A stretch of DNA of 40,340 nt, taken from NCBI GenBank assembly GCA_021372575.1, contig JAJFUE010000123.1:1-40340 (forward strand), given 5' to 3'. Position numbers and translations under genes: made by a program. A model generated the notes under the pieces. That model made no database searches, had not been told where the DNA came from, and worked only from the letters and a program-made list of their open reading frames with translations. Source of the stretch: a bacterium (GTDB lineage: Bacteria > Sumerlaeota > Sumerlaeia > MVZB01). Shown here in pieces: positions 9,859 through 37,494 of this stretch. How positions within the stretch are numbered: position 1 is the first letter of the stretch; each line of letters starts with the position of its first letter.

Positions 9859-9916
9859 TAATGCCACACGCTGATTGAACGGATTGAACGGACTTCCGCT
9901 GATTTGGATTCATCCT

Positions 9917-10160
9917 TACTACTATCCGTCAGAATCTTGTTTTCCTGACAAGATTTTTGAACAGGAGGCAACGGAGGTAACAGAGATTTCGGCCAAAAGA
10001 AATTACTCCGTTTCCTCCGTTTCCTCCTGTTCAATTCTTCAGTTCAGAAATATTCTCTGCCTCTCTGCCAAACTCTGCTTCTCTGCGACAAAAATCTTTT
10101 TCGTGTTTTTTCGTGCTCTTCTTTCGTGTGTTTCGTGTTTGCATTTTTGGGTTGCGGCTC
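9917..10160. repeat. 244-bp dispersed repeat, copy A
   Basis: This stretch matches 27193-27435 over its full length with about 12 differences by eye. Inside it is a hairpin: GAACAGGAGGCAACGGAGG (9959-9977) pairs with CCTCCGTTTCCTCCTGTTC (10015-10033). A run of CTCTGC units and TTTCGTGTTT units follows. It fills most of the 358-bp gap between the converging protease and glycosyltransferase genes. The remaining part of the gap (9866-9916, GATTGAACGGATTGAACGG) is also repetitive. No gene is present. Confidence 0.9.
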
Positions 10161-10217
10161 CGCTGCGCCAAGTTCATCGGTTCAAGTCGTGCCATTCGCG
10201 CGCGGATTTTTGAATTT

Positions 10218-17618: not shown

Positions 17619-18590
17619 ATGATTGAGTTGCCCACGAATTCCCGCGTTATGATCACCGGCCTGACCGGGCAGGACGGCTATTATCTCGCCAAGCTGCTCA
17701 TGCCGCGCGGATGCGAGATCGTGGGCCTCATTCATGAAGCCGAGATGGAGGTCGCGCGCAAAATTCGCGACGAGCTCGGCCCGATCGAGCTTCATCCGTG
17801 CGACCTCAAGGACCGGTCCGCCGTTGAGGAGGCGATCGCCTCGCGCCGGCCGCAGATCGTATATCACCTCGGCGCGCAGAGCTCCGTGCGCCGCGCGTGG
17901 GAGAACCCGCTCGAGACCGCGCAGGTCAACACAATGGGGACGATTTTCATCCTCGACGCGATGCGCCGCCACTGCCCCGGGTCGGCGTTCGTTCTTGCCG
18001 GCTCGTGCGACTGCTTCGACCACGAGGCGGCCCCGAACGGCCTCACGCCGCAGACGCCCTTCAAAGCCACCAACCCCTACGCGACAAGCAAAGTGATGGC
18101 GATCCAATACGCGCAGTATTACCGCAACGAATTCGGCGTGCGCGCCTCCGTCGCGATCTTTTTCAACCACACCTCGCCGCGCCGGCAGGAGCATTTCGTC
18201 GAGATGGGGGTCGTGGCCAACGCCGTGCGCGTCAAGCGCGGCCAGCTCGACGCGCTCACGATCGGCTCGATGGAAACGCGCCGCGACTGGTCGTGGGCTC
18301 CCGAGATCGTCGATGCGTTCGCGCGCATGGGCGCGATGCCCGACGCGATGGACCTGGTCCTTGCCTCGGGCCACACGATGACCGTCGGCGACTGGGTCCG
18401 CGAGTCATTCGCGCAGCTCGGCCTCGACATCACGCGCCACGTCCGGATCGATCCCACGCGCTGCCACCCCGGCGACCGCCCGCACACGTTCGGCAACATT
18501 GAGGAAACCAAAAGAATTTTAGGCTGGCAGCCCAAAATGGGCCTCCGCGAGATGGTCAAGGAACTCATCGCCAGCCGAGTTGAAGGGTAG
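17619..18590 (+). CDS. GDP-mannose 4,6-dehydratase-like SDR enzyme
   Basis: Extended short-chain dehydrogenases of this type make GDP-4-keto-6-deoxymannose for fucose, rhamnose or perosamine surface sugars. The protein has the NADP Rossmann motif ITGLTGQDGYYLAKLL (residues 12-27), LGAQSSVRRAWENP, the catalytic YATSK (Tyr154, Lys158), and FNHTSPRR, a hallmark of Gmd. Two active-site positions are changed: where Gmd has Thr-x-Glu (as in STSELYG), this protein reads Ser129-Cys-Asp131 in AGSCDCF. At 323 residues it is slightly short. It may therefore act on a related nucleotide sugar. The stop codon TAG is the first triplet of a dispersed hairpin repeat. No other GDP-sugar gene is adjacent. Confidence 0.85.
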   Translation: MIELPTNSRVMITGLTGQDGYYLAKLLMPRGCEIVGLIHEAEMEVARKIRDELGPIELHPCDLKDRSAVEEAIASRRPQIVYHLGAQSSVRRAWENPLETAQVNTMGTIFILDAMRRHCPGSAFVLAGSCDCFDHEAAPNGLTPQTPFKATNPYATSKVMAIQYAQYYRNEFGVRASVAIFFNHTSPRRQEHFVEMGVVANAVRVKRGQLDALTIGSMETRRDWSWAPEIVDAFARMGAMPDAMDLVLASGHTMTVGDWVRESFAQLGLDITRHVRIDPTRCHPGDRPHTFGNIEETKRILGWQPKMGLREMVKELIASRVEG

Positions 18591-18611
18591 GTCGGGTCTT
18601 CGACCCGACTC
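18588..18611 (+). repeat. TAG-starting hairpin repeat, copy 1
   Basis: The 24-bp unit starts TAGGTCGGGTC and ends GACCCGACTC; GTCGGGTC pairs with GACCCGAC around TTC. It is identical to 37064-37087 and differs at two positions from 26696-26719. Its first three bases are the stop codon of the Gmd-like gene. It fills most of the 38-bp gap to the converging App1-like gene and may act as a bidirectional terminator. Confidence 0.9.
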
Positions 18612-18628
18612 TGAAACCTAAAATACGT

Positions 18629-19759
18629 TTAATTTTCCAGGATCGCCACTCGATCGCGGCATTCCGCCGGGTCCCTGAACAGGACCACCCGATCGTTCGC
18701 GATGCCGCGCATCGCGCGCTGAAAACGCGCATCCGACAGGTTGCTGCCTTCGACTTTTCTGATGAATATGAATCCGATTTGCCGCGGGTGTTTGCGCGCG
18801 ATGGCTCCGTAAATCTCGGGATCTTTCTCGCCTGAATCCCCGACCAGAATGAATGTTCGCCTTGGAAACCTTTTCAGGACCTCCTCGATTTGCTTTGTTT
18901 TATAGGACGAAACGTCCCCGGCAAGTAATTCGATGAGGTTGTGGTCCGTCACCCTGAAATCGCGGAATCGCATCGAGCCCGCGGGGAAACCATGCGTCGC
19001 GATGAATTCGCCGAGCGGCTCGTAAAGCTGCCACGGCGAGCCGGAAATGTAATGAAACGCCGCGCCGGATTTTCCCAACGAGCGATACAGGTCGGCCATG
19101 CCGGCGACCGGCTGCGCCGGCAGCCAGAACGTGTTTGCGAGCATTCGCTTGCGGTTCAGCACTTCCGTGTGCTTGATCGTGTCGTCGATATCCGAGATGA
19201 CCGAGATGCCCGTGGGCGGGATGAGCTGGATGCGCGCCTCGAAGTTCCGCGTCTGCCCGTGCGGCAGGATCGCCTTGGCTGTGATCCATTTCAGGCAGTC
19301 CGCATTGTCTTTCACGTCGGCCGCGGCGAATTGCGCGAGCAGCATTGCGTGCCCGTTGCGGCCGGTCTTGCCCATGGCCATTTCGCGGCCCGCGAGGTTG
19401 AGCCGGATGCGTTGGTTGCGCTCGTGATCGACAAGGAACAGCCGCAGCCGTTTGTCGAGCGTCAGTGATTCGGTTGTGGTCAGCTTGTCAAGCCCGGTCG
19501 TCGCGGCGACCTCATGCACGAACGCCTTGCGCCATTTCGAATCGGGCTCGGGCTCGAACACGCACGCATGCACCTCGACGGTCCACGTCGTTCGCGTGTC
19601 GTCGAGCCAGCCGAACGTCGGGTAAAAAAGAATTTCCTCGTCGCGATGAATGTGCCCCGCCGGCAGCAGGCCGGCCCGCGCATCGGCAGCCAACATCACC
19701 CATCCGATTGCAATCAGCAAGCGAATGGTCTTAGGCAGCACCGCTTCGGAGAAACTCAT
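18629..19759 (-). CDS. App1-like (DUF2183) phosphatidate phosphatase family protein, exported
   Basis: The C-terminal half is a HAD-type phosphatase of the APP1/DUF2183 family: DIDDT at residues 190-194 holds the nucleophile Asp190 and acid Asp192. FHYISGSPWQLYEPL, MRFRDFRVTD and TFILVGDSGEKDPEIYG follow, the last containing the metal-binding Asp. Yeast APP1 acts on phosphatidic acid; bacterial members are little studied. Starting at ATG 19759 gives a signal peptide (TIRLLIAIGWVMLAADARA), so the protein should be periplasmic or lipid-facing. A start at 19795 would translate a GCGGAGT minisatellite and is unlikely. No good ribosome binding site is visible because that minisatellite occupies the leader. 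Confidence 0.85.
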   Translation of the reverse strand: MSFSEAVLPKTIRLLIAIGWVMLAADARAGLLPAGHIHRDEEILFYPTFGWLDDTRTTWTVEVHACVFEPEPDSKWRKAFVHEVAATTGLDKLTTTESLTLDKRLRLFLVDHERNQRIRLNLAGREMAMGKTGRNGHAMLLAQFAAADVKDNADCLKWITAKAILPHGQTRNFEARIQLIPPTGISVISDIDDTIKHTEVLNRKRMLANTFWLPAQPVAGMADLYRSLGKSGAAFHYISGSPWQLYEPLGEFIATHGFPAGSMRFRDFRVTDHNLIELLAGDVSSYKTKQIEEVLKRFPRRTFILVGDSGEKDPEIYGAIARKHPRQIGFIFIRKVEGSNLSDARFQRAMRGIANDRVVLFRDPAECRDRVAILEN

Positions 19760-19766
19760 GCGTTTA

Positions 19767-19801
19767 TTCCGCACTCCGCACTCCGCATTCCGCATTCGGC
19801 A
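19767..19801. repeat. GCACTCC/GCATTCC minisatellite, copy 1
   Basis: TTCCGCACTCCGCACTCCGC and the following ATTCCGCATTC are seven-base units. A close copy lies at 22011-22046, and both are followed by ACTCAGG. Here it forms the leader of the App1-like gene on the minus strand. Confidence 0.75.
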
Positions 19802-19804
19802 GAC

Positions 19805-20296
19805 TCAGGCTTTTTCGCGAATCTGTTTCATGATCGTCTTGCTGGCGTTGACCTTCGGCGCGCCGGTGATCGCCACGCGAATCCCGAGTTCGTCGGCGAT
19901 CGCGCGCTCGGGCACGCCCTCGGCCGTGTAGTCGGTTCCCTTGGCGTGGACGTTCGGGCGGATCGTGCGCAGGCAGCGCTCGGCCGTCGGCTCTTCAAAA
20001 ATCACGACGCGATCGACGGCTTCCATCCCGGCGAGCAGTTCCGCGCGTTCGACGCCCGGCATGATCGGCCGACCCGCGCCCTTGATCTCGCGCTCGCTGG
20101 CGTCGGAATTCACGCCGACGATGAGCACGTCGCCCTCGGCCTTCGAGTCGTTGAGGTAAGAGACATGCCCGGCATGCAGGATGTCGAAGCAACCGTTGCA
20201 GAACACGACGGTCTTGCCGGCGGCTTGCTGCTCGCGCGCAAACGCCGCGGCCTGGTCAAGCGTGACGATCCGGTCGGAGGGTTGGTAATCAGGCAT
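19805..20296 (-). CDS. rfaE2: D-glycero-beta-D-manno-heptose 1-phosphate adenylyltransferase, stand-alone (RfaE domain II)
   Basis: It transfers AMP to heptose 1-phosphate to make ADP-heptose for LPS core or related glycans. The 163-residue nucleotidyltransferase has the cytidylyltransferase motif FCNGCFDILHAGH (His41 and His44), VGVNSDASEREIKG, and KGTDYTAEGV followed by a late Ser/Thr-rich segment (NASKTI). I chose ATG 20296, which overlaps the upstream gene by 8 bp (ATGCCTGA), implying translational coupling. GGAAGGAATTCGGAAC lies just upstream inside that gene. The same activity is also encoded in the second half of hldE (35579-37045), so the genome carries two such domains. Confidence 0.9.
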   Translation of the reverse strand: MPDYQPSDRIVTLDQAAAFAREQQAAGKTVVFCNGCFDILHAGHVSYLNDSKAEGDVLIVGVNSDASEREIKGAGRPIMPGVERAELLAGMEAVDRVVIFEEPTAERCLRTIRPNVHAKGTDYTAEGVPERAIADELGIRVAITGAPKVNASKTIMKQIREKA

Positions 20297-20750
20297 AGTT
20301 CCGAATTCCTTCCAAATACCTGTTTTCCTCTGCGGGATTCTCACCCAAAAACATGATTAGATAATGCTTGGGGGTTTCCTCAGCAATCAAGGGCAGAATG
20401 AAAATGAAATTCAATGTCTCATCGGCTTCTTCATCGTCATGCCAGGTTGTCATTAAAAAATACTTGTCTTCGTCGGCATCGGGATCTTGTGTCTGAAGCC
20501 AAACTGCGATTTCGTCGATGCTATCGTGCCAATGTTCGCTTTCAATGCCCGCACAGCAAACATAATCGCAATTGCTTAGAATGAGTTGTTTGGCAAACTC
20601 GGACTCGAATTCATCGTCCACATGGTAGTGAAAATTTACCAGCAGGCAGAGATAAGGCTCGCCGTTAAATGGAAGCTCGGGAAAACAGGTTTGTTCAGGA
20701 AGCGAATGGACCCAAACGGAAACGTTATTGATGGATTGAATAAATTTCAT
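20289..20750 (-). CDS. Small acidic protein, possibly DUF7684 family
   Basis: I do not know its function. The 153-residue protein is acidic and Trp/His rich: LCLLVNFHYHVDDEFESEFA, NCDYVCCAGIESEHWHD, then TTWHDDEEADETLNF and a hydrophobic strand (FIFILPLIA). The Cys-Trp-His pattern with TWHDDE resembles the DUF7684 domain, seen in small proteins of unknown role; this match is from memory. It has no signal peptide. Its base composition is more AT-rich than its neighbours. AGG is 6 bp before ATG 20750. The end overlaps rfaE2 by 8 bp, so the pair is one transcript. An immunity-protein-like role is possible but unsupported. Confidence 0.7.
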   Translation of the reverse strand: MKFIQSINNVSVWVHSLPEQTCFPELPFNGEPYLCLLVNFHYHVDDEFESEFAKQLILSNCDYVCCAGIESEHWHDSIDEIAVWLQTQDPDADEDKYFLMTTWHDDEEADETLNFIFILPLIAEETPKHYLIMFLGENPAEENRYLEGIRNYA

Positions 20751-20768
20751 GATCGGCCTGGGTTCATC

Positions 20769-20827
20769 CGTCCCTACGGGACTCGCGTTTATTTTTTACC
20801 AATCTACCCCGCCATTATCATGGCGGG
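20769..20827. repeat. Paired intergenic hairpins (GTCCC-TAC-GGGAC and CCCGCCAT-TATC-ATGGCGGG)
   Basis: Two perfect hairpins (20769-20781 and 20808-20827) are separated by a T-rich stretch (GTTTATTTTTTACC). They lie in the 170-bp gap between gmhB and the 20289-20750 gene, both on minus. The arrangement looks like a mobile intergenic repeat and may also end transcription from gmhB. No gene is present in the gap. Confidence 0.65.
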
Positions 20828-20900
20828 CTGAAGGCGGTCGTCCATCCGGGACTTGGTAATCGACGTTGTATGTTGCGTGCGTATGCTCGGAGCAGCCCAT

Positions 20901-20924
20901 GTCGCTTCGGGCCGAAGCGACCTA
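20901..20924 (-). repeat. TAG-starting hairpin repeat, variant copy
   Basis: On the minus strand this reads TAGGTCGCTTCGG then CCCGAAGCGAC. It shares TAGGTCG and the overall layout with the copies at 18588, 26696 and 37064, but its stem sequence differs (GTCGCTTCGG with compensating pairs). Its TAG (20922-20924) is the stop codon of gmhB. Confidence 0.75.
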
Positions 20925-21512
20925 CCGTTTTAAGATCCACTCGACCGCTTCGACGATGTCCTCGACGATCACGGTCGGCTCGACTTTCCATTCGTGGCGC
21001 TTGTATTGAATCTCGCCGAGGCCGTAGCCGGTTTTGACCATGATGCCGGGGATGCCGGCGTTGTGCGCGAATTCGATGTCGGCCGGCTTGTCGCCGATCA
21101 TCCACGCGCGTTTCATGTCGATCGGGAATTCCTTGCACGCCTTGCGGATCATGCCGATGCCGGGCTTGCGCATCTGGTGCGGGTCGTCGCGGTATTTCGG
21201 GTCGGCCGCGGATTTATGGAACGGCGCGTAATAGAGCGCATCGACGCGCGCGCCGCCGGCGGCCAGCAGTTCATACATGCGCTCGTGGATCTTCGCCAGG
21301 ACTTCCTCGGTGAAGATCCCGCGCGCCACGCCGGACTGGTTCGTCGTCACGATCGTAAGGTAACCGGCGTTGTTGAGGCGTTTGACGGCCGCGGCCGCCC
21401 CGGGCAACAGCTCCAGCCGGTCGGGGTGGTTGCAGTAGCCGACGTCGAGCGTGATGACCCCATCGCGATCGATGAACACGCACGGCAGCTTGGGATTGTA
21501 GTCGTCGGGCAT
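20922..21512 (-). CDS. gmhB: D-glycero-beta-D-manno-heptose-1,7-bisphosphate 7-phosphatase (HAD, GmhB-like)
   Basis: It removes the 7-phosphate of heptose bisphosphate, between the kinase and adenylyltransferase steps of ADP-heptose synthesis. The 196-residue HAD protein has FIDRDGVI (Asp15 and Asp17), GYCNHPDRLELLPGAAAAVK, TIVTTNQSGVARG, KPGIGMI and WMIGDKPADIEFAHNAG. The zinc loop seems lost: where relatives have a Cys-x-His and Cys-x-Cys pair before RKP, this reads YAPFHKSAADPKYRDDPHQM with no Cys. Histidinol-phosphatase is the alternative, but nearby rfaE2 and hldE favour heptose. The frame is open to 21788, but that part is SRP RNA and repeat. The start 21512 lacks a clear ribosome binding site. 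Confidence 0.85.
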   Translation of the reverse strand: MPDDYNPKLPCVFIDRDGVITLDVGYCNHPDRLELLPGAAAAVKRLNNAGYLTIVTTNQSGVARGIFTEEVLAKIHERMYELLAAGGARVDALYYAPFHKSAADPKYRDDPHQMRKPGIGMIRKACKEFPIDMKRAWMIGDKPADIEFAHNAGIPGIMVKTGYGLGEIQYKRHEWKVEPTVIVEDIVEAVEWILKR

Positions 21513-21530
21513 GGTGATTATCAGGCGTTT

Positions 21531-21605
21531 GGGTGTTCGATTACGATTCCAGCCTTCGCCAAGGCTTCGGCTGGCAAGACGATTACGAGCACGAGCACGA
21601 AAGAT
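21531..21605 (-). repeat. GTGCTCG/GTAATCG dispersed repeat, copy 1
   Basis: On minus this reads TTCGTGCTCGTGCTCGTAATCG, then a 30-bp core (21550-21579), then ATCGTAATCG. The core is identical to 40243-40272 at the far end of the window. It contains an inner hairpin (CCAGCC...GGCTGG, GCCTTCGCCAAGGC). It separates gmhB from the SRP RNA gene. Confidence 0.85.
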
Positions 21606-21625
21606 AGCACATCGGACGAACGGAA

Positions 21626-21900
21626 GTGGTCGTGCACCCGCCTCTGTGTGAAAGGACAACCGAGCTCGCGGTTCCAGCAAGCTCCCCACAGTTGACCCCG
21701 ACGCACAAGAACCGCACCTCTTAGGGCTGCTACCGCCAGGTCCTGACCCGGTTCGAAGCCGTTCCTTGCATCGGGAACCGCGGATCAACGCCGCACGGTC
21801 CCACTTGACCGACCATCCCCACCCTCGGGCGGGAGTTCAGCCCTGCTAAAGCGGATTGCAGGTGACAGGGCACCGCTGGCTCCCCACCTAGCACGACCAA
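21626..21900 (-). ncRNA. ffs: Signal recognition particle RNA, large bacterial form
   Basis: SRP RNA with Ffh targets membrane proteins to the translocon. On minus, the 5-prime part reads GTGCTAGGTGGGGAG, GCGGTGCCCTG, CCTGCAATCCGC and TTAGCAGGGC. These match the Alu domain of the large SRP RNA known from Bacillus. The S domain has GTCAGGACC-TGGC-GGTAGCAGC, which aligns with the usual GTCAGGTCC-GGAA-GGAAGCAGC but with a TGGC tetraloop (21735-21738). GGTCGTGC at the 5-prime end pairs with GCACGACC at the 3-prime end, fixing the limits at about 21898 and 21626. A weak -10 (TACGAT, 21905-21910) lies just upstream. Confidence 0.93.
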
Positions 21901-21910
21901 GACCATCGTA

Positions 21911-22046
21911 AAGAAAAGAGATGAGATATGAAAGATGAAAGATGAGAAATGAAGAAATGAGCGATGAGAAATGCGCGATGAGAATTGAATCCTGCATGGG
22001 TCAGGAAATATTCCGCACTCCGCACTCCGCATTTACTCAGGACTCA
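21911..22046. repeat. GATGAAA-type and GCACTCC-type short repeats
   Basis: From 21911 to about 21987 the sequence is GATGAAA/GATGAGAAATG units like those at 2688-2740. From 22011 it becomes TTCCGCACTCCGCACTCCGC and ATTTACTCAGG, matching the minisatellite at 19767. Both lie between tRNA-Gln and the SRP RNA gene. No gene is seen. Confidence 0.7.
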
Positions 22047-22061
22047 GCACTTAACAAAAAT

Positions 22062-22136
22062 TGGCTGGGGGTGAAGGATTCGAACCTTCGAATGCCGGAA
22101 CCAAAATCCGGTGCCTTACCACTTGGCGAACCCCCA
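22062..22136 (-). tRNA. tRNA-Gln (anticodon UUG)
   Basis: The minus strand folds as a tRNA: acceptor TGGGGGT (22136-22130) pairs with ACCCCCA, D arm TCGCCAAGTGGTAAGGCA, anticodon stem CCGGA-TTTTGGT-TCCGG with anticodon TTG, and T arm GAAGG-TTCGAAT-CCTTC. Discriminator G and an encoded CCA end the gene. Length is 75 nt including CCA. Confidence 0.97.
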
Positions 22137-22223
22137 GCGACAGACCACACATCATAGCCAGCCCGCAAGGATTCTGTCAATCGGCTGTTGTTCGTAGTGC
22201 CGCCTTCCTCGATCTTCATGAAA

Positions 22224-22354
22224 CTGAACCACGAAGACACAAAGGCACGAAGCATTCTTCAAAATCGATTCAGGACACGTCACCTGCAATTTGTTTGATG
22301 ACAGCATGAATTTTCAAAATTGCCTTCTTCGTGCCTTCGTGTCTTCGTGGTTCA
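22224..22354. repeat. 28-bp inverted repeat pair (CACGAAGACAC type)
   Basis: TGAACCACGAAGACACAAAG and the next eight bases (22224-22251) are repeated inverted at 22327-22354 with one mismatch, separated by 75 bp. The spacer has weaker inverted parts (TTCAAAAT / ATTTTCAAAAT). It lies in the divergent gap between tRNA-Gln and the DUF2089 gene, which otherwise holds no gene. Confidence 0.85.
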
Positions 22355-22384
22355 ATCAATCCGGGTCGCGCTCAAGCATCAAGG

Positions 22385-22398
22385 CCGCCTTCAGGCGG
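22385..22398. repeat. CCGCCTTCAGGCGG hairpin, second copy
   Basis: Perfect 14-bp match to 17591-17604, here about 70 bp upstream of the DUF2089 promoter. Confidence 0.65.
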
Positions 22399-22466
22399 AG
22401 CAAATGCCGCCCCGAGCTTGCGTCCGAATAAAATTAACGCGAAAGCCCGCTACACCAAAATAATAT

Positions 22467-22495
22467 TTGACCAAGAAGGCGATTCTGCTTAATTT
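22467..22495 (+). promoter_or_regulatory. Predicted sigma-70 promoter giving a leaderless DUF2089 transcript
   Basis: TTGACC (22467-22472), 17 bp, then TAATTT (22490-22495), then 7 bp to ATG 22503. No ribosome binding site precedes the ATG. The spacing puts the transcription start at or next to the A of ATG. The -10 matches only at the key TA...T positions. Confidence 0.45.
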
Positions 22496-22502
22496 ATCAT
22501 TT

Positions 22503-22865
22503 ATGGATTCAACCCGCAAGAGCCCGGATTGCCCTTACTGTGGCGCGCCGATGCGCACGGCGGTCATGGTCTGCGACCGCTGCGAGGTCGAAATCCGCGG
22601 CCGTTTTCGCCAGAGCCAGTTCTCGCGTCTCCCCGCCGAAGACCAGGAGTTCCTCGAACAATACCTCCTCGCCGGCTTCAGCATCAAGGCTCTCGCCGAG
22701 GAGTCCGGCCTCGGTTACGTCGCGATCCGCAACCGCCTGGATCACCTGATTGAGACTTACCGCAGGCTGCAGGCCAACGAAGAAGCCAAGCGCGCGATCC
22801 TCGAGCGCCTCGCCAAAGGCGAGATCACCCCCGCCGCCGCAGCCAAGCAAATCGAAAGGCTTTAA
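22503..22865 (+). CDS. DUF2089-like zinc-ribbon protein
   Basis: The 120-residue protein has an N-terminal zinc ribbon (CPYCGAP, then MVCDRCEVEIRG), a helix-turn-helix-like middle (LPAEDQEFLEQYLLAGFSIK then ALAEESGLGYVAIRNRLD), and a C-terminal helical tail ending GEITPAAAAKQIERL. This layout matches DUF2089, small putative regulators. It is followed after 1 bp by a PspC-domain gene, so the two are co-translated; DUF2089 next to PspC-type membrane proteins suggests control of an envelope-stress function (inference). ATG 22503 is chosen because the zinc ribbon begins right after it. Confidence 0.85.
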   Translation: MDSTRKSPDCPYCGAPMRTAVMVCDRCEVEIRGRFRQSQFSRLPAEDQEFLEQYLLAGFSIKALAEESGLGYVAIRNRLDHLIETYRRLQANEEAKRAILERLAKGEITPAAAAKQIERL

Positions 22866-22866
22866 C

Positions 22867-23583
22867 ATGGAATCGGCTGACATCTCGTCCCAAGAAATGC
22901 TCGATCAGCTTATGCGCGACGGCAAGATCAGCGACGACGAATATCTGCGGCTTTCGAAAGCGATGCAGCGCAAACCCGAACCGGCGCCGCAGCCCCCCGA
23001 GCAAACGCCCGGTCAGCGCATCCAACGCCCGCCGCTCCACAAAAGCCGCAACCGCCTGATTGGCGGGGTTTGCGCCGGGTTGGCCGAGCATTTCGGCTGC
23101 GACCCGATCATCGTGCGCGTGATCGCGATCATCCTGCTTCTGACCATCCCGCCGGTCGCGCTCATTAGTTATTTGGTTTTGTATTTCATGCTGCCATGGG
23201 GCGGTGAGGCGGTTGTTGAAGTGGATGCACCCAAAAAGCCGTGGCGGTTCGCGTTCTGGTCGGCGATGTTTCTCACCATCGTTCCGATGCTCATCATCAA
23301 ACTTTTGATGATCAGGATTTTGGATCTATATTCGCAAATCGGGGCTGAATTGCCATTCTTCACGATAGTCGTCGTCGCAATCAGCGATGCCTACCTGCAT
23401 TGGGCCGCGTATGCCTCGGTCGTCGTTGTGATCCTGGCAACGGCCATCTATCTGGTGTGCGGTCCGACTCTCAGAAAACCATACGCCACCGTGTTCCTGC
23501 TGATCTCCTTCATGTGGTCGCTTATGTTCGCAGTTGGCTATTACACGGCCGTGCTCGGTCTGCCCAAAATAGTCGTCCGCTGA
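22867..23583 (+). CDS. PspC-domain membrane protein with N-terminal short helical domain
   Basis: Residues 1-40 are an acidic helical SHOCT-like segment (MLDQLMRDGKISDDEYLRLS). A Pro-rich linker follows, then a PspC domain: LHKSRNRLIGGVCAGLAEHF, GCDPIIVRVIAIILLL and SYLVLYFMLPW. Three further hydrophobic segments fill the C-terminal half. PspC proteins sense or respond to membrane stress in the phage-shock system. At 238 residues this one is longer than minimal PspC. It begins 1 bp after the DUF2089 stop, and its own ribosome binding site would lie in that gene's end. No PspA or PspB is nearby. Confidence 0.88.
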   Translation: MESADISSQEMLDQLMRDGKISDDEYLRLSKAMQRKPEPAPQPPEQTPGQRIQRPPLHKSRNRLIGGVCAGLAEHFGCDPIIVRVIAIILLLTIPPVALISYLVLYFMLPWGGEAVVEVDAPKKPWRFAFWSAMFLTIVPMLIIKLLMIRILDLYSQIGAELPFFTIVVVAISDAYLHWAAYASVVVVILATAIYLVCGPTLRKPYATVFLLISFMWSLMFAVGYYTAVLGLPKIVVR

Positions 23584-23589
23584 TATTTC

Positions 23590-23660
23590 AACCACGGAAG
23601 GCACTGAATACATGGAAAAGTTGAATTTGTCCTTCCGTGTATTCGGTGTATTCCGTGGTT
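23590..23660. repeat. Hairpin repeat between convergent genes
   Basis: AACCACGGAAGGCACTGAAT (from 23590) pairs with GTGTATTCCGTGGTT ending near 23660, with scattered mismatches and a short loop. It fills the gap between the converging PspC and gamma-glutamyltransferase genes and may terminate both. Confidence 0.75.
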
Positions 23661-23672
23661 TAGAATTCTCCA

Positions 23673-25337
23673 TCAATACCCCACCGCCATCCCGTCCTTG
23701 CGCGGGTCGCTTCCCGCGATCCATCCCGGCCCGAGCGGGTTGCGCATGACGCCCTGGTAGCCGCCGAAGCTCGTGGGCGGCGTGTTGCCGATCATCGTGT
23801 GGCCCTTCGCGGCCAGCGCCTTGCGCACGTCGTCGCCGATCAGCGATTCCAGCCACACGCCCTTGGTTTCGTGGCGCCACCTCGGCGCCTCTCCGGCCTG
23901 CTGGATGTTCATCCCGAAATCGACGAGGTTGCACAGCACCTGCGCGTGCCCCTGCGGCTGCATCGTGCCGCCCATGACGCCGTAAGCCACCCACGGCTTG
24001 CCGTCCTTCAGCGCCATCGCCGGGATGATCGTGTGGAACGGCCGCTTGCGCGGCGCGAGCACGTTCGGGTGCTTCGGGTCGAGCGTGAACCCGAAGCCGC
24101 GGTCCTGCATCAGGATCCCCGTTTCGCCGGCCATCACCCCCGACCCGAACTGCCCGGCGATGCTGAAGATCATCGAGATCATGTTGCCGTCCTTGTCGGC
24201 CGCACAGAGATACACGGTGTCGCCGTCGGACGAAATCCCCGGCATCGGTTCGGCCATCGCGCGGTTCGGATCGATGAGTGCGCGCCGCTTGGCCGCGTAT
24301 TCCTTGGAGAGCATCTCCTTGACCGGCACCTTGGCTTTTTTGGGGTCGGCAACAAGCGCGTAAAGGTCGGCGTAGGCGAGGCGCTTGGCTTCGACCTGCA
24401 AATGAATCGCCTCGGCCGAGTTCTGGCCGAGAGATTTGAGATCAAATCCCTCGAGGATATTGAGCATTTCGAGCGCGGCGATGCCCTGGCCGTTGGGCGG
24501 CAGCTCGAACAGCTCCACGCCGCGATACGTCGTCGAGATCGGCTCGATCCACTCGGCGTGGTAATCGTTGAAATCGGCGAGCGTCAGCATCGCCCCCTGC
24601 TTCTCCATCGACTCGGCGATCTCCTTCGCGATGTCGCCGCGATAAAAACTGTCCGGCCTAGCCGCCAGCCGCTTGAGCGTCTTGGCCAGCTTCTCGTTCT
24701 TGAACAGTTCGCCGGGTTTCGGCAACCGGCCGTCGATCAAGAACGCGGCCTTGGCCTCGGGCGTGACGAGGTTTTTTGCGTTGTTTTTCCAGTTCTCGAG
24801 GATGACCGGCTCGACCGGCACGCCGCCCCCTGCGTAGTCGATCGCCGGCGCCAGCGCGCGCTTCATCCCGATCGTGCCGAACTTCTTCATCAATTGATTG
24901 AACCCATCGACCGCGCCGGGCACCGTGATCGACAGCGGCCCCGTGCTGGAGAGCTTCGTGACCCCCTTGCTCTTCACGAACTCGAGCGTGGACTTCGATC
25001 CCGACCACCCGCTTGCGTTGATGCCGTAAAGCTTCTTGTCCTTCGCCGACCAGACGAGTGCGAACATGTCGCCGCCGATCCCGGTCATCATCGGCTCGAC
25101 CACGCCGAGCGTGCAGGCCGCGGTGACGGCCGCGTCGATGGCGTTGCCGCCATCAGCGAGGACCTTGAAGCCGGCGGCCGAGGCCATCGGATGGCTCGTT
25201 GCAATGACGCCGTGCGGGGCCATGACTTCCGAGCGGGTCTGGTGAATGTTCGGCGCGGGGCGGTCAAACGCCGGGGCGGCCTGGGTCACGAACCCGCATA
25301 TCGCCATCGCGATCGCGACGGGGAAACTTTTCTTCAT
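23673..25337 (-). CDS. ggt: Gamma-glutamyltransferase (glutathione hydrolase), periplasmic
   Basis: GGT cleaves the gamma-glutamyl bond of glutathione and related peptides outside the cytoplasm and self-cleaves to two subunits. The 554-residue protein starts with a signal peptide (KKSFPVAIAMAICGFVTQAA), then MAPHGVIATSHPMASAAG, GGNAIDAAVTAACTLGVVEP, GIGGDMFALVW and PGAVDG. The autoprocessing nucleophile is Thr374 in GDTVYLCAADKDGNMIS. GSGVMAGETGILMQDRG and GMRNPLG-type C-terminal segments follow. Tandem ATG codons occur at 25340 and 25337; GGAGG is 4 or 7 bp upstream, favouring 25337. A GGT-like hydrolase of other gamma-glutamyl compounds is possible. Confidence 0.93.
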   Translation of the reverse strand: MKKSFPVAIAMAICGFVTQAAPAFDRPAPNIHQTRSEVMAPHGVIATSHPMASAAGFKVLADGGNAIDAAVTAACTLGVVEPMMTGIGGDMFALVWSAKDKKLYGINASGWSGSKSTLEFVKSKGVTKLSSTGPLSITVPGAVDGFNQLMKKFGTIGMKRALAPAIDYAGGGVPVEPVILENWKNNAKNLVTPEAKAAFLIDGRLPKPGELFKNEKLAKTLKRLAARPDSFYRGDIAKEIAESMEKQGAMLTLADFNDYHAEWIEPISTTYRGVELFELPPNGQGIAALEMLNILEGFDLKSLGQNSAEAIHLQVEAKRLAYADLYALVADPKKAKVPVKEMLSKEYAAKRRALIDPNRAMAEPMPGISSDGDTVYLCAADKDGNMISMIFSIAGQFGSGVMAGETGILMQDRGFGFTLDPKHPNVLAPRKRPFHTIIPAMALKDGKPWVAYGVMGGTMQPQGHAQVLCNLVDFGMNIQQAGEAPRWRHETKGVWLESLIGDDVRKALAAKGHTMIGNTPPTSFGGYQGVMRNPLGPGWIAGSDPRKDGMAVGY

Positions 25338-25516
25338 CATGAAGCCTCCAGCCGGGGGTATGAATGGCACCATAAAAAACAAACGCAAGAAAGCCGTGTT
25401 GCTCACGGACCGAAGGCGCGTTTCAAAAAAATGCGAGTTGGGCAATCGATTAGGATTGCGCCCCCGATATATATCTTGAGAGGATAATTAGTAAACGGTT
25501 TGCCCGGTGATTCAAC

Positions 25517-26698
25517 ATGGCATTTTCCGAAGAACACATCCCGACGTATTTTGCTCCGGCCGAGCGCGCGACCGAAGCCCGGATTCGCGAGCTCCACAAT
25601 TTCGTCCTTGGCCACCCGCTGTTCCAGGCCATCATCGAGTCGATCGACGGCTACATGATGATCCTCAACCCCGAGCGGCAGGTGTTGGCGATGAACCCCT
25701 CATTGCTGACGGCGCTCGGCATCGACTCGGTGGATTGCCTGCTTGGCGAGCGGCCCGGCGAAATTCTCGGTTGCGTGCACTCGCATGAAATGCCCGGCGG
25801 CTGCGGCACGTCGAAGGCCTGCTCCACATGCGGCGCGGTCATTTCGATCCTCGCCAGCCAGCAGGAAGGCCGCGCCCACAGCGGCGAATGCATGATCAGC
25901 GTGCGCGACGGCAAGGACGTCAAGTCGTTCGATTTCCGTGTGCGCGCCACGCCGATCACCCTCGGCAAGAACCGCTTCACGGTCGCCGTGTTCAACGACA
26001 TCAGCGGCGACAAGCGCCGCCAGACCCTCGAGCGCGTGTTCTTCCACGACCTGCTCAACACGGTCGGCGGCCTCGAGGGCTGGAGCAACATGATCATGCG
26101 CTACAAGGATCTGGACCCGGCCGAGGCCGCCGCGCGCATCCTCGACCTGTCGCAACGCCTGCGCCAGGAGATCGAGGACCAGCGCCGCCTCACGATGGCC
26201 GAGCAGAACCAGCTCGTCGTCCGCCCGCATGACATTCTCGTCAGCAACATGCTCGAGAAGCTGCGCGGCGTGTTCAGCGCCAACGACGCCACGCACGAGC
26301 GCAACCTGCACATCGACTCCGCGCCGCTCCAGGAAGAAATCTTCACCGACGCCGCGCTGCTCGAGCGCGTGCTCGTCAACATGGTCAAAAACGCGCTCGA
26401 GGCCGTGCGCAAGGGCCAGACCGTGCGCGTGTGGTTCGAGCGCCGCAACGGCAAACCGGTGTTTTGCGTGAACAACGAGGGCGTCATCCCCGAGCCCGTC
26501 GCGTTGCGCATTTTCCAGCGCTCGTTCAGCACGAAGCCCGAGCAGGGCCGCGGCATCGGCACTTACAGCATGAAACTGTTCGGCGAAAAATACCTCGGCG
26601 GCAAGGTCGATTTCACGACGACCACCGACGGCGGCACGACGTTCTGGATCGAGCTCCCCCCCGAAGGCCCGCCCGAACCCGCAGCCAAGGAAGAGTAG
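25517..26698 (+). CDS. Soluble PAS sensor histidine kinase with a cysteine cluster
   Basis: The 393-residue kinase has no membrane segment. Residues about 34-165 form a PAS domain with an inserted cysteine cluster: GCVHSHEMPGGCGTSKACST places Cys86, Cys96 and Cys102, followed by Cys105 (C-x9-C-x5-C-x2-C). This could hold an iron-sulfur cluster or zinc, or act as a redox switch. A dimerisation helix has His177 in FFHDLLNTVGGLEGW, the likely phosphorylation site. The ATPase domain has NMVKNALEAV (N box) and GRGIGTYSMKLFGEKYLGG (G box). No response regulator is adjacent; the single-domain regulator at 37117 is too far off to assign. The stop TAG is the start of a dispersed hairpin repeat. Confidence 0.9.
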   Translation: MAFSEEHIPTYFAPAERATEARIRELHNFVLGHPLFQAIIESIDGYMMILNPERQVLAMNPSLLTALGIDSVDCLLGERPGEILGCVHSHEMPGGCGTSKACSTCGAVISILASQQEGRAHSGECMISVRDGKDVKSFDFRVRATPITLGKNRFTVAVFNDISGDKRRQTLERVFFHDLLNTVGGLEGWSNMIMRYKDLDPAEAAARILDLSQRLRQEIEDQRRLTMAEQNQLVVRPHDILVSNMLEKLRGVFSANDATHERNLHIDSAPLQEEIFTDAALLERVLVNMVKNALEAVRKGQTVRVWFERRNGKPVFCVNNEGVIPEPVALRIFQRSFSTKPEQGRGIGTYSMKLFGEKYLGGKVDFTTTTDGGTTFWIELPPEGPPEPAAKEE

Positions 26699-26719
26699 GT
26701 CGGGTCTCCGACTCGACTC
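26696..26719 (+). repeat. TAG-starting hairpin repeat, copy 2
   Basis: Matches the unit at 18588-18611 at 22 of 24 positions. The differences weaken the stem (CTCCGACTCGAC). Its TAG is the stop codon of the histidine kinase gene. Confidence 0.85.
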
Positions 26720-26753
26720 GTAACAAGAGAGTTTCAACCACGGCGGGATGCCC

Positions 26754-27146: not shown

Positions 27147-27194
27147 ACACGGAATACACGGAATCAGGAATAAATTTTTTCCGTGTATTCCGTA
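27147..27194. repeat. ACACGGAATACACGGAA hairpin
   Basis: ACACGGAATACACGGAA (27147-27163) pairs with TTCCGTGTATTCCGT (27179-27193) across a short AT loop. It abuts repeat copy B in the gap between converging genes. Confidence 0.7.
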
Positions 27195-27435
27195 CTACTA
27201 TCCGTCAGAATCTTGTTTTCCTGACAAGATTCTTGAACAGGAGGCAACGGAGGTAACAGAGATTTCAGCCAATAGAAATTACTCCGTTTCCTCTGTTTCC
27301 TCCTGTTCAATTCTTCAGTTCAGAAATATTCTCTGCTTCTCTGCCCAACTCTGCATCTCTGCGACAAAATCTTTTTTGTGTTTTTTCGTGATCTTCTTTC
27401 GTGTGTTTCGTGTTTGCACTTTTTGGTTGCGGCTC
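27193..27435. repeat. 244-bp dispersed repeat, copy B
   Basis: Same orientation as copy A (9917-10160), with about 12 substitutions and one single-base gap by eye. It too lies between converging genes. With the neighbouring hairpin it accounts for the 27084-27461 gap; no gene is seen. Confidence 0.9.
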
Positions 27436-27461
27436 GACCGCGCTCAGTTTTCCGTGGTTGA

Positions 27462-37045: not shown

Positions 37046-37063
37046 GGTTTTCGCCAGAAATGG

Positions 37064-37087
37064 TAGGTCGGGTCTTCGACCCGACTC
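37064..37087 (+). repeat. TAG-starting hairpin repeat, copy 3
   Basis: Identical to 18588-18611. It lies between the response regulator and hldE, both on minus, and here its TAG is not used as a stop codon for any gene I support. Confidence 0.9.
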
Positions 37088-37116
37088 TTTGGATTGGCCT
37101 GCTTGTTTCGCGCGCG

Positions 37117-37494
37117 TCACGCCTCGGCGCCGCTCAGCACGTCGTTGACCTTGTTGATCAGGTCGGCCATCTCGAACGGCTTGACGATGTAGTAGTTGGT
37201 TCCGCCGACGAGCGCTTCCTGGATCTTTTTGCGCTCGGAAAGCCCCGTCAGCATGATGATCGGGATGGTCGCGGTCGCGTCGTCGGCCTTGAGCGCGTGC
37301 ATGACGTCGAACCCCGACATCCCGGGCATCATCACGTCGAGCAGGATCAGGTCCGGCTTCTGCTCGTGCACGGCGGCCAGCGCGTCGCGGCCGTTTGAGG
37401 CCGTATCGACCTCGAACCCTTCGCACTGCAGGGCGGTCTTCACGATCAGGACGACATCGGTTTCGTCATCGACTGCCAGAATTCTTTTGCTCAT
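37117..37494 (-). CDS. Single-domain response regulator (CheY-like receiver)
   Basis: The 125-residue protein is one receiver domain with no output domain. It has LAVDDETDVVLIV (acidic pocket near residues 9-11), the phosphoacceptor Asp53 in DLILLDVMMPGMSGFDVM, IIMLTGL, and the switch Lys in IVKPFEMADL. Such proteins pass signals by protein contact, for example to flagellar motors, phosphorelays or kinases. AGGA is 3-4 bp before ATG 37494; the frame is open ten codons further up. hldE follows on the same strand 72 bp downstream with a repeat between. The partner kinase is unknown. Confidence 0.92.
   Translation of the reverse strand: MSKRILAVDDETDVVLIVKTALQCEGFEVDTASNGRDALAAVHEQKPDLILLDVMMPGMSGFDVMHALKADDATATIPIIMLTGLSERKKIQEALVGGTNYYIVKPFEMADLINKVNDVLSGAEA

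Follow-up and report, generated by a model that had tools for sequence, protein, structure and literature searches.

Why should three unrelated genes on one contig take their stop codons from the same kind of short hairpin repeat? The question is raised by contig JAJFUE010000123.1 (C63) of a bacterium of the Sumerlaeia, whose 40,340 nucleotides (nt), here called the window, were examined together with the rest of the host genome (G000; 4.63 Mb, 214 contigs). The original prediction had located hairpin units at 18588, 26696 and 37064 on the plus strand and at 20901-20924 on the minus strand, and had proposed that they are placed or retained at stop codons. Our analysis indicates that the units are very probably repetitive extragenic palindromic elements (REPs) of the GTAG-tagged kind. 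They would fall into two families, A and B, and belong to a REP/REPtron system specific to this lineage that is, or formerly was, mobilised by a HuH transposase of the RAYT (REP-associated tyrosine transposase) type, and in-frame landings in gene tails, together with selection, would have turned some of them into stop codons.

Hairpin units and the stop codons they supply

The sequences of the four window units were as described, and all of them fold, with RNA hairpin energies between -13.8 and -15.7 kcal/mol and z scores between -2.1 and -3.4. The family A 22-mer, searched at up to 3 mismatches, matched the window three times, against 0 matches expected from shuffled sequences. The units and the genes that they end are the following.

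18586..18612, plus strand: family A REP (GGTAGGTCGGGTCTTCGACCCGACTCT); its TAG at 18588-18590 ends the Gmd-like gene
26694..26720, plus strand: family A REP (GAGTAGGTCGGGTCTCCGACTCGACTCG) with one stem mismatch; its TAG at 26696-26698 ends the histidine-kinase gene
37062..37088, plus strand: family A REP that terminates no gene, lying between an hldE-like gene and gene 37117-37494, both on the minus strand
20901..20925, minus strand: family B REP (GTAGGTCGCTTCGGCCCGAAGCGAC); its TAG at 20924-20922 ends the gmhB-like gene
17619..18590, plus strand: Gmd-like NAD-dependent epimerase/dehydratase gene, ending …SRVEG-TAG in the unit
25517..26698, plus strand: PAS/HATPase histidine-kinase gene, ending …PAAKEE-TAG in the unit
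20922..21512, minus strand: gmhB-like gene, ending …EWILKR-TAG in the unit

That the TAG of three unrelated genes is carried by the unit agreed with the ends of the open reading frames (ORFs) and with the Pfam and NCBIfam assignments of the proteins as a GDP-mannose-dehydratase-like protein, a PAS/HATPase histidine kinase and a GmhB-like HAD phosphatase. Likewise, only the copy at 37064 ends no gene. The minus-strand copy, previously taken for a variant, does differ from the others, but it is a member of family B rather than a loose variant; its usual GTCA prefix has diverged to AAACG.

A genome-wide search for such hairpins, as the original prediction had proposed, showed that the element is dispersed. 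At up to 3 mismatches, the family A 22-mer had 98 matches and the family B 25-mer had 77, against 0 for the reversed controls, and 173 distinct copies (96 A, 77 B) were left after retrieval. Family A has the pattern GGTAGGTCGGsTC(n3)GAsCCGACTCT (consensus GGTAGGTCGGGTCt.CGACCCGACTCT) and family B the pattern GTCAGTAGGTCGCTTCGGyTCGAAGCGACAT (consensus GTCAGTAGGTCGCTTCGGCTCGAAGCGACAT). Units start with TAG in 139 of the 173 copies and are preceded by a G in 168, and the stems of 8-9 bp show compensatory changes; for example, pair 6 of A switches between GC and CG (66/29), and pair 2 of B between TA and CG (59/8). The copies are mostly intergenic; about half of them lie away from stops, and 17 lie clearly inside genes, mostly in antisense. 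Family A forms 15 head-to-head pairs with GTAG on the outside, mostly 7-14 nt apart, and 58 of its 96 units are single; in family B, 71 of 77 units are single. The B singles do not look like decayed REPINs (REP doublets forming hairpins), because they are often identical (24 exact copies). The family A pattern was found in none of 60 relatives (2 of the same family) and in none of the other genomes examined of the class. A viral origin of family A was also considered and was rejected, as viral contigs held no exact match. Several contigs of G000 start no more than a few dozen bases from a REP unit (for example C42:3, C77:4, C58:25, C94:29), so the true copy number may be above 173. The heads of family B are occasionally duplicated in tandem (TAGGTCAGTAGGTCGC; L064, L067, L090:9248), and the gene then stops at the first TAG.

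Gene calls were made using a purpose-trained codon model, which had been trained against shadow frames. By these calls, 39 of the 173 copies (20 A, 19 B) provide the exact stop of a predicted gene, with a score of 40 or more for 34 of the genes. Were sense landings kept without regard to frame in coding DNA, two thirds of them would be read through; instead, the 39 exact stops compare with 8 sense copies that are read through or internal (binomial p = 3e-12 for a null of 1/3), which is the excess at stops that the original prediction had asked about. The codon before the stop is element-like as well. It is CAG in 12 of the 19 family B cases (11 of 344 control genes) and NGG in 18 of the 20 family A cases (26 of 344), and the element therefore brought the last residue together with the stop. 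Among the control genes, 65 of 344, about one fifth, end in TAG. The suggestion that a mobiliser targets TAG was not borne out, as the TAG belongs to the GTAG head of the element itself and the codon preceding it is also element-like.

In two further genes, the stop (TGA or TAA, in another frame) lies in the loop of an A unit. At L169:5278 and L118:2108, the A loop variants TATGAC and TTTAAC provide a second-frame TGA or TAA that stops the upstream gene at an offset of -13. At L003:1471-1580 and L111:2031-2140 (contigs C45 and C78), the outer TAGs of a head-to-head pair stop both convergent genes.

The proteins that end in a unit are complete in their domains. An informative Pfam domain at the C-terminus was available for 21 exact-stop genes, and in all 21 the match reaches to within 5 positions of the profile end, as in GatB (148/148, with the stop two residues further on), TGT (356/357) and AMMECR1 (167/168). 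The expected trimming of C-termini was seen in part. Gmd is slightly shorter, with 6 residues past the aligned end versus 8 and 11 in its two closest relatives, and GmhB is without a tail of 6-18 residues found in 7 of the 7 relatives compared, whereas the kinase is not shorter than its relatives. For each of the three window genes, the closest relatives stop with TGA or TAA and carry no hairpin there; one Gmd relative and two GmhB relatives of greater distance stop with TAG, again with no hairpin. In an ftsZ gene (L141:564-2000, contig C127), the family B TAG comes shortly after a DIPALQRRRR-like tail, so that FtsZ seems to keep its usual C-terminal peptide.

These observations can be brought together as follows. 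Each unit presents an unpaired GTAG head followed by a perfect 8-9 bp hairpin. After a sense landing, one frame of three would read G-TAG and, in dispensable last codons, the TAG of the unit would replace the natural stop; the final residue, which is Q in B and G or R in A, would then come from the element as well. In the remaining two frames the element would be read through, and most such landings would be purged, like those deep within genes. In-frame landing in dispensable tails and purifying selection are enough for the exact phasing, because every in-frame landing falls at offset zero by construction. We infer that RAYT drove the movement of the units and that purifying selection filtered their landings, while any post-transcriptional effect of the units would be at most mild. 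Mild translational down-tuning by the stop-supplying units is plausible, because the footprint of a ribosome terminating there would include their hairpin; in E. coli, lowered translation has been reported for REPs no more than 15 nt from a stop (work cited in PMC12306157).

The RAYT gene and its relation to known repeats

The genome contains 13 Y1 transposase loci. A RAYT (Y1) gene, which the original prediction had recommended looking for, is present among them with units on both flanks.

C168:35359-35979 (L169:5360-5980): RAYT gene for a 207-aa protein with HVH and SYIESNPVKAG motifs

Its product has the HuH motif and the C-terminal region of the catalytic tyrosine that mark a RAYT, and it matched the NCBIfam model REP_Tyr_transpos NF047646 at 3.7e-20 (72.3 bits; curated cut-off 80 bits) and the Y1_Tnp model PF01797 just over the cut-off. 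Two direct A units lie just upstream of the gene and one inverted A unit lies a few bases past its stop, an arrangement that makes it a typical REPtron. The gene was missed by the codon model that recognises its neighbours, and its codon usage is therefore unlike that of the host. About 12 further Y1/RAYT-like genes were seen on C11, C118, C127, C111 and other contigs (L176-L187). On C118 (GTAGCCCCCGGCGAAGC) and C127 (GTAGCTGTCACCGAATT), these genes have GTAG-headed repeats of their own on both sides, which suggests several independent REPtrons in the genome.

The GTAG-tagged REPs were defined by Di Nocera et al. in 2013 as RAYT-associated elements lying behind ORFs, and the passages of that article dealing with them state that their termini "often provide" a TAG stop to flanking ORFs (PMC3733652). 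The units described here share with this superfamily, as those passages present it, the unpaired GTAG at one end, the 8-9 bp stem, the 2-4 nt loop, a copy number of up to a few hundred, the location behind ORFs, head-to-head dimers, complementary stem variants, a RAYT gene nearby and the use of the element TAG as the stop of flanking ORFs. They differ from it in that A and B occur in this genome only, among those searched, and B is nearly always single. With respect to the 24 GTAG families listed there, the comparison is one of description and not of sequence. A and B are thus new REP families of a known kind, and the TAG-stop phenomenon itself was already published in 2013.

The likeness to the REPtron/RAYT (TnpA-REP) systems (PMC2817692, PMC8266576) lies in a Y1 HuH gene bracketed by REPs of the same family, in a perfect palindrome beside GTAG, and in CT/CA dinucleotides at the flanks, which were recognised by eye (GAC-TCT in A; GTCA-GTAG...GACA-T in B). 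Unlike in those systems, family B has no RAYT among the genes found. The 15 head-to-head pairs of family A with GTAG outside resemble REPINs (Bertels and Rainey 2011, PMC3116915), but most A and nearly all B units are single. The units also share a GC-rich hairpin near a stop codon with intrinsic terminators. However, a T-rich tract follows the hairpin in only 31 of the 173 copies, and the terminator scan of the window reported none of its copies as terminator-like. Because most hairpins have no U tract, the units are not typical intrinsic terminators, and the earlier idea of a cassette combining stop and terminator was not supported.

Two other kinds of repeat were noticed in the window. The ORF that ends at the unit-borne gmhB TAG spans 20922-21788 on the minus strand; its start at 21788 is probably wrong, because gmhB homology begins only near 21490. 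Upstream of this homology, window 21513-21788 (ORF residues ~56-110) matches several other places in the genome at 56-88% identity and appears to be a translated dispersed repeat outside gmhB proper. At 9913-10174 and 27189-27449, a 198-nt direct repeat (92%) extends about 60 nt further. Together with its short relatives elsewhere (TTCCGTGTATTCCGT, CTCTGCATCTCTGCGACAA), it looks like a second dispersed class of intergenic repeat.

Polarity behind existing stops and the rival explanations

A further 42 copies sit 1-20 nt behind a same-strand stop, which brings the stops with a hairpin at or close behind them to 81. When strict gene calls were used and similar contexts were removed, the GTAG side of units within 20 nt behind a stop faced the stop in 34 cases and the blunt side in 2 (p = 2e-8). 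This polarity holds in the unpaired units of both families. The spacing between stop and unit is 2-7 nt in family A, and in family B it peaks at stops directly adjoining GTCAGTAG. No sense bias was seen in units away from stops.

Several simple causes of the polarity were examined and rejected. A decayed second REPIN arm would have left CTAC or CCTAC at the expected distance, where no enrichment of them was found. A general strand bias does not fit with the lack of sense bias away from stops, nor with the mostly antisense orientation of gene-internal units. The unit TAG does not act as a tandem second stop, as the offsets show no bias to multiples of three. GC skew was uninformative on the cause.

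The polarity is one of several points that weigh against in-frame landing and selection as the full account. Neutral tolerance leaves it unexplained, because tolerance would give symmetry. In addition, no empty site was seen and there is no close relative (best 58-60% protein identity), and no displaced gene tail is detectable behind the exact-stop units, as no coding signal was found there in any frame. The gene calls rest on a purpose-built codon model and not on a standard caller, the C168 RAYT scores slightly below the NCBIfam curated cut-off, and none of the Y1 genes found adjoins family B units, although assembly gaps may account for this.

One rival reading is a directed process. In it, the GTAG head would be brought to the 3' edge of stops or of 3'-end contexts, or be maintained there, in one orientation, single REPs would be portable translation-stop cassettes, and the use of TAG as the stop would be one outcome among others. 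The 34 to 2 count, its presence in single units of both families, the tight spacing and the missing sense bias elsewhere all speak for this. In spite of that, no common target sequence is visible upstream of the element, about half of the copies are not at stops, selection on some effect that the head has in RNA or DNA would give the same picture, and published RAYT work indicates CT/CA dinucleotides rather than stop codons (PMC8266576). We consider it a minority possibility, with perhaps a small but real chance of being right. The polarity nevertheless keeps alive the original question of placement or retention at stop codons, though not the targeting of TAG. Somewhat less probable still is that the hairpin is kept behind stops for a function, as a 3'-end stabiliser or a ribosome-stalling tuner of translation, so that TAG plus hairpin would be a selected cassette. 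The hairpins at or close behind 81 stops and the reported effect of REPs up to 15 nt from a stop in E. coli (cited in PMC12306157) would agree with it. However, selection on an RNA hairpin does not suffice for the strongly polar placement, because a palindrome works equally in both orientations; moreover, most copies lack a U tract, the host genes are functionally mixed, and the absence of the families from all relatives tested leaves no deep conservation.

Elements of the IS200/IS605 group insert behind a short target sequence, which is TTAC for IS608. A hairpin inserted in the same manner behind a pre-existing G-TAG stop as its tetranucleotide target would yield the exact phase directly, but we disfavour this explanation strongly. 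GTAG is present in nearly all copies, including those far from genes, and the GTCA (B) or GG (A) before it is a conserved part of the unit that encodes the last codon. Ordinary genes end in TAG in 65 of 344 cases, and the closest relatives of the window genes have TGA or TAA. In the RAYTs studied, GTAG is a recognition or guide motif that chooses CT/CA cleavage sites, and the GTAG of our units matches such a guide rather than a cleavage site (PMC8266576). As for the window itself, three of four copies at stops is a weaker argument than the original prediction held, because any sense in-frame landing in coding DNA makes the TAG a stop; by our own estimate, a landing is sense and in frame at about 1/6 of coding positions. 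Some coincidence is thus built in, as a sense GTAG creates a stop whenever it falls in one particular frame of the three. Chance alone is nevertheless refuted by the genome-wide 39 of 173 against 8 read-throughs, at complete protein ends, and it is this count that carries the phasing.

In-frame landing of mobile GTAG-tagged REPs followed by selection remains the reading that we prefer. With it, the range of these REPs and of the REPtron is extended to a class of bacteria from which few genomes have been sampled (39 in the set examined), and the published remark that such termini "often provide" a TAG stop, as it stands in the passages cited above, is now quantified by the frame asymmetry, the element-encoded last residue and the complete protein ends. 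The polarity of single units at stops appears to be new, as the text of PMC3733652 on GTAG REPs and the other literature passages on them that were consulted do not mention it. If general, this polarity would separate targeted insertion from selection in the biology of REPs.

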